The position numbers were made by a program, and so were the translations under genes. Below, piece after piece: positions 16,413 to 44,938 of a stretch of DNA of 46,909 nt (positions are counted from its first letter, which is position 1; every line of letters starts with the position of its first letter). Location: contig JAEUQV010000035.1 in NCBI GenBank assembly GCA_016789655.1, forward strand, positions 1 through 46,909, written 5' to 3'. The stretch is from Candidatus Saccharimonadota bacterium. GTDB lineage: Bacteria; Patescibacteriota; Saccharimonadia; Saccharimonadales; UBA4665. The notes under the pieces were generated by a model that did not search any database, was not told where the DNA came from, and saw only the letters and a list, made by a program, of their open reading frames with translations.

Positions 16413-16493
16413 GCCGTATGTGCTGAAGCTGAGGCGAGAACCTAATTCGGGGCGTTTGACGAAAAGTGCCATTAGGGGCGATCTCCGGTCGCA

Positions 16494-16623
16494 GAATTAT
16501 GAATTATGAATTGGGAATTGGGAATGGAAATTTCGTCCGGCAGCTGCCGGACTATTTTATCGCCGCGTAGCGGCTCAGTTTCCCCTCTTGTCTCTTGACT
16601 CTTGTCTCTTGACTCTAATTTTC
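16494..16623. repeat. palindromic repeat R2, intergenic copy
   Basis: The left flank is a 7-bp periodic array (TGAATTA, TGAATTG, GGAATTG, GGAATGG). The core has a perfect GTCCGGCAGCTGCCGGAC palindrome near 16535-16552 and a GCCGCG-TAGCGG hairpin. The right flank is another heptamer array (TCTTGTC/TCTTGAC alternating), ending CTCTAATTTT. The core aligns without gaps to the copy inside the pseudouridine synthase gene (21587-21685) at roughly 80% identity by eye. Confidence 0.85.
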
Positions 16624-16629
16624 CCATGC

Positions 16630-18219
16630 CTATAGTTTACCAGCGCGGCGCTTGTTTCGCACGATTTTGCGCTGGGTCGCACTACGCTCGGGTTTGGTGG
16701 GGCTATTGCCATGGGCGTGGCGACCACTCTTCTCTATGAACCACAGCTGCACTGCTGTGCCATCGAAGTTAAATTCTTGCCGGAGTTCGCGCTCCATATA
16801 CCGCTTATAACTCCAGTGGAGGAATTTGGTGTGTGCGCCGAAAATTTTGAAAGCTGGGGTTGGATTGTCATCTTCTTGGACCATATAATTCAATTTTGGT
16901 GCGCGGTTTTTGAGGCCGGCTGGCGGGTGTTTGGAAATGACTTTGTTGAGCCACTCATTGAGCCTGCTTGTACTGATGCGGGTTTTACGATGATCAAACA
17001 CCTGCAATACGAGGTCGAAAATTTTGGCTACATTCTGACCAGTCACACTGCTGGTAAAAATTAGCGGTGCCCATGGTACGAAGTTGAACGCTTCGGCTAT
17101 CTGTGGTGCAAGCGCGTCGCGGGTATACGCCGTTTTTCCTTCGACACTATCCCATTTCGATACGATTATAATTAGCCCTTTGCCTGCTTCTTCGATCATA
17201 CCGGCGATTTTCTGGTCGAGACCGGTGTTGAGCTCGTTGACGTCCATGAGTAACAGGCATACATCGGCTTGTTCGATGGCGGCAAGGCTTCGGATGACGC
17301 TGAAGTGCTCTATGCCCTGCCCGATTTTGCCGCTACGTCGGATGCCAGCGGTGTCCATCAGCTCTATTTCGCACCCCTGATATTTTATGGTCGTACGGTT
17401 GACATCGCGCGTGGTACCCGCCCTGTCGGCGACGATGGCCTGCTGCTTTTTAGCCAGCGTGTTAAACAACGCGCTTTTGCCTACATTAGGGCGACCTAAG
17501 AGCGCGAGGCGTATACGGTTGCAATCTTCTTCTAGCGTTGCCTGCGGGATCTGACGCACCAAGGCATCGAGCAGGTCGGATATTCCTCTGTTCTGTGTGG
17601 TGCTGGTCGGGAAGATGGGTTTTATACCGAGGCGGTCAAAGCCCTCAAGGTCGTGCCCCCGAGCCCGGTCTACTTTATTGATGATTAGGAAAACCGGTTT
17701 GCCAGTTTTAAGCGCGATGCGGGCGATGCGGCGGTCTTCTTCGGTTATAGACGCATTTGCCTCTACAACGACCCAGATGATGTCGGCGCTGTCAGCGGCT
17801 TGGGCGATTTGCTCTTGAATGGTAAACTCGAACTCATCTTCGGCGGATTTCATACCTGCGGTGTCTACCAACCAAAAATCGTACCGATTTTTGGTTGGAG
17901 AATCATAGCGCACTCTGTTAGCCACGATTTCATTTTTTGAAGAGGGGCTCGCCCCTCTTGAGGTACTCTCATCGCTGCGCTCTAGAGTAGCCTCCACTCC
18001 CCCAGCCATCCTTTCGGATGGCTGCCCTCGCTGTGCTCGGGTTTGCCCGGGAGTTACAGCTTCGCTAACCCAGCTAGCTTTTGCCCAGACGCTGTCGCGA
18101 GTGGTGCCAGCTTCTTGCGCTACAATCGCTTCGCGCCGCTGCAAAATGGCATTAAACAGGCTGCTTTTGCCCACATTGGCTCGTCCAACAATCGCCACAA
18201 TCGGTAATTTTTTACTCAT
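16630..18219 (-). CDS. der: ribosome-assembly GTPase Der (EngA), with repeat insertion
   Basis: 529 residues, longer than the usual 430-490. Two tandem GTPase domains: the first has GRANVGKSS (12-20), AGTTRDSV (38-45), VDTAGM (118-123) and NKVD; the second has GRPNVGKSALF, AGTTRDV, DTAGI and SKWD. A C-terminal KH-like domain follows. Der promotes 50S subunit assembly. Between the switch I region of the first domain (ends near residue 50) and the G3 DTAG motif there are about 64 residues where relatives have only a few; 35 of them are encoded by the R1 palindromic repeat (17941-18045). The reading frame stays open and all GTPase motifs survive, so the protein is probably functional. Confidence 0.93.
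   Translation of the reverse strand: MSKKLPIVAIVGRANVGKSSLFNAILQRREAIVAQEAGTTRDSVWAKASWVSEAVTPGQTRAQRGQPSERMAGGVEATLERSDESTSRGASPSSKNEIVANRVRYDSPTKNRYDFWLVDTAGMKSAEDEFEFTIQEQIAQAADSADIIWVVVEANASITEEDRRIARIALKTGKPVFLIINKVDRARGHDLEGFDRLGIKPIFPTSTTQNRGISDLLDALVRQIPQATLEEDCNRIRLALLGRPNVGKSALFNTLAKKQQAIVADRAGTTRDVNRTTIKYQGCEIELMDTAGIRRSGKIGQGIEHFSVIRSLAAIEQADVCLLLMDVNELNTGLDQKIAGMIEEAGKGLIIIVSKWDSVEGKTAYTRDALAPQIAEAFNFVPWAPLIFTSSVTGQNVAKIFDLVLQVFDHRKTRISTSRLNEWLNKVISKHPPAGLKNRAPKLNYMVQEDDNPTPAFKIFGAHTKFLHWSYKRYMERELRQEFNFDGTAVQLWFIEKSGRHAHGNSPTKPERSATQRKIVRNKRRAGKL
17868..17898. repeat. perfect 14-bp inverted repeat inside der
   Basis: CCAACCAAAAATCG (17868-17881) and CGATTTTTGGTTGG (17885-17898) are perfect inverted copies around a 3-nt loop, within the codons just before the G3 motif of Der. 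It abuts the insertion-containing segment and looks like a local inverted duplication linked to the repeat insertion. Confidence 0.8.
17941..18045. repeat. palindromic repeat R1, copy inside the der coding sequence
   Basis: About 105 bp aligning closely with 44834-44938. It contains an AGAGGGGC/GCCCCTCT palindrome and an AGCCATCC-TTTC-GGATGGCT hairpin. On the der coding strand it is open and adds about 35 residues (including GQPSERMAGGVEATLERSDE) to the G1-G3 loop of the first GTPase domain. The other copy is intergenic, showing that it is a mobile or dispersed unit, not a Der domain. Confidence 0.85.
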
Positions 18220-19042: not shown

Positions 19043-19748
19043 ACTAAACGGAACATCCCGTAAACTTGTAAGTGCGAACTAACAAGTAAAGAGAATATGT
19101 TCCAATGCTTAAAATACCAAACTTTGCCAGTAACAAGAAATGCTGACAGATCCTCAACCGGCTGGTCTTCGGTGACGCTGTCTGCTGCCCGTCCTGCGGC
19201 CAGAACTTGTCCGAGCGGTACAAAGGCCGCTACTGTTGGTGCGACCACTTTCGGGCGCATCTACTGGACACGCTGCCATTGCTTGAGGCAGTCGTCAAGG
19301 CTGACGAAAGCTACATCGGGAAGCGACGTAGCAAACAGGCGCAACTGGTAGTCACCGGAGCGGTTGATCCAGACACCGGCAGAAAGGCACTGCGGATTAC
19401 AGGTATCTCTCATGCCGGGCGAGCCCAGGATGTTCTGGAGCAATTCATTCAATACAGCGTCAAACCCGGCAGCCTCGTGGTCACCGACAAGTGGTGGGGT
19501 TACGACGATTTACCACTCCTAGGTTACCAGCACGAAAGCCATAACCACTCCAAGGGAGACTACTCAGATACCAACCATGCCAAGAATATCTGGAGTGTGG
19601 CCAAGCGGCATATGCGGAAGGTGTACGGTGGTCGCTTACTGACCCGACGACTCGATGACTTCTAAGAATGGATGGCCCGAACCAACCAGCCTGAGTTGTT
19701 TGTAAGCCCTACTGCATTCCTACGGTTTACGCTTGTTCCGTGTTAGTT
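19042..19748 (+). mobile_element. IS1595-like insertion sequence remnant (707 bp)
   Basis: The ends are imperfect terminal inverted repeats: AACTAAACGGAACATCCCG... at 19042-19065, and the reverse complement AACTAACACGGAACAAGCG... at 19725-19748, both continuing into GTAAAC. The interior encodes a damaged ISXO2-type transposase. No clear target-site duplication is visible. The size is shorter than complete IS1595 members, consistent with an internal deletion. Confidence 0.8.
19105..19746 (+). pseudogene. degraded IS1595-family (ISXO2-like) transposase
   Basis: One frame runs from the ATG at 19105 through a zinc-ribbon-like CCPSCG...YCWC segment, the DDE-domain core (VVKADESYIGKRR with its first acidic residue; VVTDKWWGYDDL with the second) and the NHAKNIWSVAKRHMRK motif. 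It is broken by TGA at 19144 and TAA at 19663, after which coding-like sequence resumes (EWMARTNQPELF). The roughly 70 residues normally lying between the zinc ribbon and the DES motif are missing (join near TLPLLEAVVKADESY). The element cannot move by itself. Confidence 0.8.
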
Positions 19749-21398: not shown

Positions 21399-22172
21399 TT
21401 ACGCAACCTTTTTCCACTGCCCAGCTTGCAGATCATCTAACGTATGCGGGCCGAAGTGGGTGCGATGGAGGGTGGTGACGGTGTAGCCGAGGGCGGCAAA
21501 GGTGCGGCGGATTTGGCGGTTGCGGCCTTCTTGCATGCGTACTTCGTACGCATGAGAGTCATGAGGCAAGAGATAAGAGTCATGAGTGGAAATTGTGTCC
21601 GGCTTTTGCCGGACATTTTTATTGCCGCGCAGCGGTGTATCCTCCTCTCTTGACTCATGTCTCATGACTCTTGACTCTAATTTTTGAATGGAAAAACGGC
21701 TCAAGCCGTCTTCGAGCAAGATGCCGTGGTCGGAGATAATTTGCTGGTGAAGTGGCTGGAGGGGTTTGTCGAGTGTTATTTCGTATACCTTTGTTTTGGC
21801 ATATCGGGGGTGTGTAAGCTTGTTGGCGAGATCGCCATCGTCGGTCATCAGCAGTAAACCTGAAGAATCTTTGTCCAGCCTGCCAACTGGGTTAAGTAGA
21901 TGAAGCTCTGGCGGCAAGAGGTCATAGACCGTCAGGCTTCCCTGCCCATCCCTGGAGCAGACGTAGCCTACCGGCTTATGCAGTATGATAGTTGTGTGTG
22001 TTTGCCGAAAAACTAGTTTCACCCCATCGAGGCTAATAACATCGGTGAGTTCAGCCGGGGATCCTATACTGGCAATTTTGCCGTTTATCGTTACTCGCCC
22101 CTCGGCAATCGCTACGTCGGCGGCTCGCCGGCTTAGTTCACTAGCTGCGGCAATGTATTTGTTGAGACGCAT
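21399..22172 (-). CDS. rluB: 23S rRNA pseudouridine synthase (RluB/RsuA family), with repeat insertion
   Basis: 257 residues from the ATG at 22172, which begins the S4 RNA-binding domain (MRLNKYIAAASELSRRAADVAIAEGRVTINGK). The catalytic domain has GRLDKDSSGLLLMTDDGDLAN with the catalytic Asp, KVYEITLDKPL, and the late EGRNRQIRRTFAALGY motif. Between KLE and AYEVRMQEGRNRQIR there are about 44 residues encoded by the R2 palindromic repeat (21551-21686), inserted in frame. Upstream DNA carries two perfect hairpins. Which member of the RluB/RluE/RluF/RsuA group it is cannot be fixed by eye. Confidence 0.88.
   Translation of the reverse strand: MRLNKYIAAASELSRRAADVAIAEGRVTINGKIASIGSPAELTDVISLDGVKLVFRQTHTTIILHKPVGYVCSRDGQGSLTVYDLLPPELHLLNPVGRLDKDSSGLLLMTDDGDLANKLTHPRYAKTKVYEITLDKPLQPLHQQIISDHGILLEDGLSRFSIQKLESRVMRHESREEDTPLRGNKNVRQKPDTISTHDSYLLPHDSHAYEVRMQEGRNRQIRRTFAALGYTVTTLHRTHFGPHTLDDLQAGQWKKVA
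21551..21686. repeat. palindromic repeat R2, copy inside the pseudouridine synthase gene
   Basis: The core has a GTCCGGC-TTTT-GCCGGAC hairpin and a GCCGCG-AGCGG segment and aligns without gaps to the intergenic copy at 16525-16622. The flanks are heptamer arrays in inverted orientation: GAGTCAT/GAGGCAA/GAGATAA units on the left, TCATGTC/TCATGAC/TCTTGAC units on the right. On the gene's strand it is open throughout and contributes about 44 hydrophilic residues just before the conserved RNRQIRR motif. Confidence 0.85.
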
Positions 22173-22189
22173 ATTAGCTATAGTAACCC

Positions 22190-22265
22190 GAGCTCGACAC
22201 AACTGTCGAGCTCTACAGATGCCCGCCCGCCTCGCTCATTAAACTGGAGTAATCCAGTTTAATGA
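22190..22265. repeat. two adjacent perfect hairpins upstream of the pseudouridine synthase gene
   Basis: GAGCTCGACA (22190-22199) pairs with TGTCGAGCTC (22204-22213) around CAAC. TCATTAAACTGGA (22236-22248) pairs with TCCAGTTTAATGA (22253-22265) around GTAA. Both arms are perfect (10 and 13 bp) with 4-nt loops. They lie between two minus-strand genes and lack long T tracts. They may terminate response-regulator transcripts or be palindromic repeat units. The rest of 22203-22420 shows no gene. Confidence 0.6.
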
Positions 22266-29770: not shown

Positions 29771-29912
29771 TTGTTGTGCGTATTGGGCTGTTGTAAAATG
29801 ATAATGCAGATGCGTTGCATACTGCCCAACAAGCTGGCTCCGATCGAATGATTAAGCGTATTGTAAATACGTCGACCAGCGTGGGACTCCGGCCGTAAGG
29901 CTGGAGTTTTTT
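29771..29912 (+). ncRNA. candidate small RNA with promoter and terminator
   Basis: TTGTTG (29771-29776) and TAAAAT (29794-29799) are 17 bp apart. A strong terminator follows: ACTCCGGCC (29886-29894), GTAA loop, GGCTGGAGT (29899-29907) and six T residues to 29912. The transcript would be about 105 nt, with smaller hairpins (GCAGATGC/GCATACTGC; CGTATT/AAATACG) and no ORF of note. The terminator could equally end the DUF3800 transcript, so the sRNA is tentative; the terminator itself is solid. Confidence 0.4.
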
Positions 29913-29940
29913 GTTAGGCAGGTGCGCTTCAAGACTATGC

Positions 29941-30056
29941 TGCGGGTGAGCGGGCTGTCAACCTAGCGGGTTCGTATCCCGCGCAATGACCACGAAAAAA
30001 AGCCTACCTTTCGGTAAGCTATTTTCGTGGTGAACGTGGTTGAATCGAATTGGAAC
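29941..30056. repeat. tRNA-3'-end-like junction, repeat copy A
   Basis: A plus-strand tRNA-like 3' fragment (GCGGG-TTCGTAT-CCCGC T-arm at 29966-29982, CCA at 29990-29992) leads into an imperfect 18-19 bp inverted repeat (29990-30030) whose right side ends TGG. A further 26 bp follow, including GAATCGAATTGGAAC. The last 56 bp (30001-30056) align without gaps to 34388-34443 with 48 identities. The tRNA-like part lacks a matching 5' half, so it is a fragment. I read this as an att-type junction of an integrated element. Confidence 0.55.
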
Positions 30057-30208
30057 GATATCCTTATGGAGTTCAATAGGCGCTATCACCTTATGAGGGG
30101 ATTATCTCTGGCATAATCCATTCGCTATGGTAATAGAACTAGTTTATGCTTGACACATGACGCTAATGCTTTTGTTATAAGCTGTTCAACTCTATAATAC
30201 AGCGTAAT

Positions 30209-34377: not shown

Positions 34378-34443
34378 CCAAGAATATAGCCTACCTTTCG
34401 GTAGGCTATATTCTTGGTGACCCTAATAGAATCGAATTGGAAC
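34378..34443. repeat. tRNA-3'-end-like junction, repeat copy B, with a perfect 18-bp palindrome
   Basis: The 18-bp arms 34378-34395 and 34400-34417 are perfect inverted copies around TTTC, beginning CCA and ending TGG. The sequence then reads TTGGTGACCC, identical to the minus-strand 3' end of tRNA-Glu at 40970-40979, followed by GAATCGAATTGGAAC as in copy A. Copy B thus shares its hairpin with A and its tRNA end with the tRNA-Glu gene, as expected for a boundary between two adjacent integrated elements. Confidence 0.65.
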
Positions 34444-34528
34444 TCTATCTTATCAGAGATTGCCCGCTGGTGGGGTTTACTCCGTGATTTACACCTTGGT
34501 GGTTCCTACCTAGGAGCGACTAGAACCT

Positions 34529-44811: not shown

Positions 44812-44833
44812 GTGATATGCCTTCAATCTGTTT

Positions 44834-44938
44834 AAGAGGGGCTCACCCCTCTTGAGGTACTCTCATCGCTATGCTCGAGAGCAGCCTCCACTCCCCCAGT
44901 CGCCCTTGCGGGCGCCTGCCCTCGCTGTGCTCGGGTTT
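44834..44938. repeat. palindromic repeat R1, intergenic copy
   Basis: About 105 bp matching 17941-18045 in der. It has the AGAGGGGC/CCCCTCT palindrome, identical GAGGTACTCTCATCGCT and CCTCCACTCCCCCAG blocks, a variable central hairpin (GTCGCCC/GGGCG) and an identical CTCGCTGTGCTCGGGTTT end. The central hairpin differs in sequence while keeping its pairing, evidence that structure matters. It lies between the TrmB-like regulator and the methyltransferase. Confidence 0.85.

Follow-up and report, generated by a model that had tools for sequence, protein, structure and literature searches.

The window (the whole 46,909-nt stretch of DNA that was analysed) comes from a 1.35 Mb MAG in 118 contigs that belongs to the Saccharibacteria, which are tiny parasitic bacteria. 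On the minus strand, at 21399..22202, it encodes an rluB-type 23S rRNA pseudouridine synthase of 267 amino acids, which matches the profiles PF00849 (2.2e-20) and PF01479, the S4 domain (8.6e-7), and has RluF (3dh3) and RluB (4lgt) as its best fold matches in the PDB. Inside this gene, at 21551..21686 and likewise on the minus strand, lies a palindromic element, R2, supported by its fold and by the absence of a counterpart in orthologues. The rluB frame stays open through the entire insert, so that the initial annotation was right to place R2 in frame within an RluB-type gene.

The R2 element of rluB consists, in this order, of a left heptamer arm, a hairpin (GTCCGGC/GCCGGAC), an AT linker, a second hairpin (CCGC/GCGG) and a right heptamer arm. 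The left arm (21555..21590, plus strand) is made of GAG-N-Y-A-W heptamers (GAGTCAT, GAGGCAA, GAGATAA and GAGTCAT) together with GTGGAA, and the right arm (21643..21678, minus strand) is the inverted heptamer array. The two hairpins are both G+C-rich and were identified by folding, with no strand assigned; they occupy positions 21595..21616 (TGTCCGGC..GCCGGACA) and 21624..21636 (CCGC..GCGG). At one end the element shows only a short mirror of host codons (CATGCGTAC/GTACGCATG), and it has no long site-specific arms of the kind described below for family C. A second copy (16494..16623, no strand assigned) is found between pth and der. The two copies align without gaps over 130 nt (16493-16622 versus 21555-21684) with 72% identity and thus belong to the same repeat family, as had been proposed. 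The hairpin core with inverted 7-bp arrays that the initial annotation described is present in both of them, but the left arrays are not built of the same heptamer (AATTATG/AATTGGG at 16494, GAGTCAT-type in rluB), and clear homology is limited to the core and the right arm. Each R2 copy has one open frame, and the frame used in rluB differs from that used in umuC.

When folded as RNA, the rluB copy reaches -55.9 kcal/mol (z -8.1 versus dinucleotide shuffles); its DNA fold also has a z of -8.1, and none of 200 dinucleotide shuffles folded as well. Among 12 rluB inserts found at this position, 10 are strong DNA palindromes with a fold z of -4.1 or lower; the inserts have a mean of -5.1, whereas the DNA upstream of them in these genes has one of -0.1. 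The two that are not strongly folded come from genomes G001, the sister species of the source, and G014. The G001 copy (L112) has kept the heptamer array and the open frame and has lost the fold (z 0.3), so that one old rluB copy has lost its palindromicity.

Analysis of 90 distinct rluB orthologues, based on the spacing between GRLD and EGRNRQ, revealed normal spacing in 77 of them, whereas 12 had 24 to 58 additional residues, all at one loop, and one more had 17; the loop of the window protein exceeds the median of the 90 by 36 residues. Within the same genus, the genes of G002 and G003 are free of the insert and that of G006 is nearly so. Orthologues without the insertion thus exist in the genus and make up most of those in the order, which rules out an ancestral origin of the segment, as its initial description as an insertion had implied. 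Other genes that carry such elements in the source genome are also empty in relatives: der and polA in G002, G003 and G005, and ligA and leuS in these three genomes and in G006. The insert-free rluB orthologues led us to reject the view of the segment as an ancestral RluB domain. The broader possibility that it is an ancestral or functional domain, or else an error of assembly, is barely credible: the insert is indeed shared with the sister species, but it is missing from 77 of the 90 orthologues, unrelated sequences occupy the same spot elsewhere, the insert is disordered in the structural model and independent MAGs agree. In that AlphaFold model, the insert sits between strands 171-174 and 217-223 of a beta-hairpin with pLDDT values of about 45-50, compared with mostly 90-98 for the rest of RluB. 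The insert is thus predicted to be a disordered tip of the beta-hairpin that leaves the enzyme core intact, which agrees with the exposed loop originally suggested.

The genome-wide search for further copies, with tandem repeats of the degenerate GAGNYAW as the pattern, its reversal as the control and overlapping windows as the unit of counting, yielded 83 array windows in the source genome (G000), 39 in its sister G001, 19 in G004, 15 in G002 (a single long array) and 2 in G005; the reversed pattern gave 0-1 matches. The pattern was absent from G003 and G006 and from all 53 genomes searched in other genera. As far as pattern matching can tell, the heptamer arrays are genome-wide and confined to the genus of the source MAG. 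Full two-arm R2 elements were also found at L021 and L028 and, in G001, at L152 and L159, with umuC of G001 among the genes that hold a full copy; this bears out the initial description of R2 as a repeat family. In the source genome, arrays or elements are in frame in polA, trmD, leuS, pepN and purL and apparently occur at the C-terminus of dnaK (a gene assigned by reading only). The corresponding host genes in G001 are umuC, tsaD, polA, purL and dedA. Copies of all elements were counted by search and from the stretches around the matches, not from whole-genome sequence. The window also contains an array of a different heptamer, AACTACT (722-788), with no paired inverted array noted.

R2 is not the only dispersed palindrome in these genomes. 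Another element, R1, is inserted in frame in der (EngA) at 17932..18044 on the minus strand and has a second copy in the window at 44826..44938 (no strand assigned); elsewhere in the source genome R1 lies in frame in ligA, with a partial match in alaS, and in G005 it is found in rluB (L114) and umuC (L146). At the alaS loop, G001 (L187) encodes GHPELVSGS...RIKPGMTD versus an R1-related insert in the source genome; the G001 insert presumably resembles a widespread ATTCCC-type bacterial palindrome, which is a lead only. Family C, from rumen Saccharibacteria, matched each of seven genomes 5-17 times, family D has four copies in its own genome, and the insert found in rluB of L040 has further copies of its own. 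Owing to these multiple copies, the C, D and L040 inserts are dispersed repeats.

Outside the source genome, the rluB inserts are unrelated to R2, with the exception of the G001 array. In total, no fewer than four dispersed families that are unrelated to one another have occupied the rluB loop, namely R2, R1, C (in L044, L046, L058 and L073; the inserts of L034 and L040 are related to it) and D (in L032); L043 has a lone palindrome at this loop. At L040 5500-5690, the C-type rluB palindrome contains a nested second palindrome of about 74 nt that has no counterpart in other copies. The same pattern is seen in five more genes. The leuS loop carries an array in the source genome and family C in L210 (L213 is ileS and was excluded), the tsaD loop an array in G001 and family C in L207, L212 and L245, the ligA loop R1 in the source genome and family C in L252, the tlyA loop family C in L216/L218 and family D in L283, and the umuC loop R1 in G005 and R2 in G001. 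By contrast, trmD, polA, dusB and a TrmG10-like gene have been struck in more than one lineage or by more than one family, yet at different loops. Unrelated families thus reuse the same loops in these genes, although no formal probability is attached to the sharing. The suggestion in the initial annotation that such insertions are tolerated, or even favoured, is strongly supported in its first part by these other families in the same rluB loop and by the five genes that behave alike; for the second part, a benefit to the host, there is no evidence. The inserted residues can come from any frame of the element, and disorder is predicted for them.

Family C offers the clearest view of how such elements relate to coding sequence. 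Of the 59 copies examined, 56 lie inside long ORFs, an excess that may partly reflect the use of a genic copy as the query; L254, which is included in these 56, is placed at the 5' end of an rplL-like ORF and may precede the true start. Named by NCBIfam, the host genes are tsaD, gyrA, tgt, leuS, recX, ileS, miaA, tlyA, trmD, pheT, dusB, queA, tatD, polA, an iscS-type gene, gatB, ligA, a P-type ATPase gene, valS, a femX-type gene, aspS, obgE, argS, an rlmD-type gene, uvrC, uvrB and mnmA. The hosts of families C and D (L206-L221 and L242-L285) seem rich in tRNA/rRNA-modification enzymes and tRNA ligases, with no background rate available for comparison. Family C is read in all six frames (19, 13 and 4 copies in the sense frames, and 12, 5 and 3 in the antisense ones). 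An element adapted to coding was considered and rejected, since stop-free frames are no more frequent than in dinucleotide shuffles; because the elements are not unusually stop-free, frame compatibility acts as a filter and is not a matter of design.

Beyond their common core, insertions of family C are bordered by inverted repeats that are unique to each site. At 13 independent sites, the arm score was 8.2, as opposed to 3.1 for mismatched flanks; the controls gave a maximum of 7, and none of 601 permutations reached 8.2. In six rluB inserts with hand-cut arms, standard pairs make up 96.4% of the arm pairs, and covariation, with both sides changed, is seen in 8 of 14 pairs, a level reached by none of 500 shuffles, although the six sequences are related and no strict probability can be given. 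In L058, the core has been inverted in place between nearly the same arms, with 98.9% identity. When rluB sites are compared across genomes, the cores are 95-99% identical, and cores from separate genes within a single genome reach up to 99%. For the host gene, by contrast, the DNA that precedes the insert shows an identity of only about 75%, and this difference points to movement, conversion or transfer in the recent past.

These arms admit more than one explanation. Template switching during replication is an established source of hairpins and compensatory changes, which it also maintains (PMC8794818), and it is known to homogenise the arms of inverted repeats and to invert the spacer (PMC8604942). 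We infer, without direct demonstration, that such switching at the replication fork, in the form of snap-back synthesis, probably makes and repairs the arms and keeps them complementary. It is doubtful, though conceivable, that the elements instead insert into hairpin loops that the gene possessed beforehand, with the matching arms being the target and not the product. Nearly all tested family-C insertions are flanked by inverted repeats, and the extra palindrome inside the C-type copy of L040 (by inspection) would fit such targeting; however, the empty alleles recovered for uvrB (L288), tgt (L296) and trmD (L286 and L287) show no long arms on inspection, although only a few are comparable. 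A functional role of the palindromes as structured mRNA elements (for example in regulating translation, or as hairpins subject to skipping or processing), with the structure under selection, appears very unlikely. The folds are strong, and the compensatory changes in the rluB arms could reflect selection on RNA structure, but template switching also predicts covariation (PMC8794818), most orthologues do without the element, the sister copy L112 is unfolded and still in frame, the core can be inverted, and searches of Rfam returned no match for any of the elements.

The means by which the elements move remain to be identified: no transposition event was seen and no mobility enzyme could be linked to them. 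None of the sites showed a convincing target-site duplication: such duplications were not evident at rluB, and a possible one of 6 bp (TGTTAG) was noted only at umuC of G001. Terminal inverted repeats, a trait of MITEs, are present as inverted arrays in R2 and as site-specific arms in family C. RAYT-like Y1_Tnp genes number five in the source genome (L167-L171, on contigs C16, C44, C68, C21 and C76) and from one to four in each of its genus relatives, and three of the five are flanked by palindromes of their own. In two of them (L168 and L170) these flanks are long near-perfect palindromes, that of L168 being partly translated, as LRQGRTLTQ, at both ORF ends. A MITE- or REP-like system in which resident RAYT/Y1 transposases drive the palindromes would draw on these genes, but we consider it unlikely: the palindromes at the RAYT genes are, on inspection, not like R1 or R2, and Y1_Tnp, the only transposase type searched for, was not found in the seven family-C genomes. 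A general role of Y1_Tnp as the mover is thus improbable, and the mobilisation of the elements as REPs by RAYT is weakened as a candidate. The window also contains (at 19063-19665, by reading only) a remnant-looking IS1595/ISXO2-like transposase ORF (19207-19665), which separates der from rluB, two genes that lie close together in the genus relatives.

The closest parallel is provided by the Rickettsia palindromic elements (RPEs; Ogata et al. 2000, 2002), palindromes of 100-150 bp that form several families, occur both between genes and in frame within unrelated housekeeping genes (PMC10969869, PMC3767692) and include different groups inserted near the same place in orthologues (PMC3767692). 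The elements described here are similarly dispersed palindromes of about 100-150 bp, inserted in frame into pre-existing ORFs with empty orthologues. They differ in belonging to another phylum, in the heptamer arrays of R2 and in their site-specific covarying arms, and they lack the conserved peptide in the host ORF, family C being read in six frames. We therefore call them RPE-like by behaviour and do not file them as RPEs, as the conserved peptide is lacking and sequence homology has not been established. Coding palindromes of nematomorph mitochondria also consist of inverted repeats in translated genes whose arms evolve in concert, with template switching as the proposed cause (PMC6649704); unlike the dispersed families in loops seen in Saccharibacteria, those repeats encode conserved protein regions. 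The TAACTGA repeats of Beggiatoaceae and cyanobacteria (PMC4679880) share with R2 the 7-bp tandem arrays scattered in certain clades, but they are mostly intergenic and lie just before start codons, whereas the R2 arrays form inverted pairs around hairpin cores and are often genic and in frame. In REP/RAYT systems, palindromes are dispersed in genomes with Y1 transposases, but REPs are 20-40 bp long (PMC3733652), compared with more than 100 bp here, and are extragenic, and family C is mostly genic and occurs in genomes without detected Y1.

We consider it highly probable that R2 is a selfish non-coding palindrome in rluB, RPE-like in its behaviour and retained in a permissive loop. It would have entered rluB before the split of the source species from its sister G001 and may owe its retention to chance, having no stop codons and landing in frame at a harmless beta-hairpin tip. 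Several unrelated palindrome families of Saccharibacteria act like RPEs, each lineage with families of its own; selection would purge insertions outside a limited number of permissive loops, and the same loops would be refilled independently because only insertions in them are spared. That the elements bring no benefit to the host is an inference; on this view, the housekeeping proteins of these bacteria grow by absorbing selfish DNA. A bolder and more tentative idea, for which the case is at present the weaker one, is that the palindromes need no transposase, and that template switching at replication is by itself enough for them to spread and to regrow, copying flanks into new inverted arms, keeping the arms matched and flipping their cores in place; if so, proteins would gain loops through purely mutational self-copying.

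Protein-coding palindromes have so far been treated as a Rickettsia speciality, and the literature searched, with partial coverage, contained none from Saccharibacteria or Patescibacteria; several unrelated families are now found in another phylum, where they share loops of rluB, leuS, tsaD, ligA, tlyA and umuC. This sharing bears directly on a point that the Rickettsia work did not settle, namely whether different elements at one site reflect a shared hotspot or a single diverged insertion (PMC3767692). The elements also provide a natural map of the loops in which conserved enzymes accept 10-60 additional residues, and material with which to test whether genic hairpins are built by template switching. 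Two further features of the window are a match to the DUF3800-I RNA (RF02969) at 29799-29918, with 72 bits against a gathering threshold of 44, and a pair of 67-nt repeats (29996-30062 and 34383-34449, 82% identity) that contains a terminator-like hairpin.
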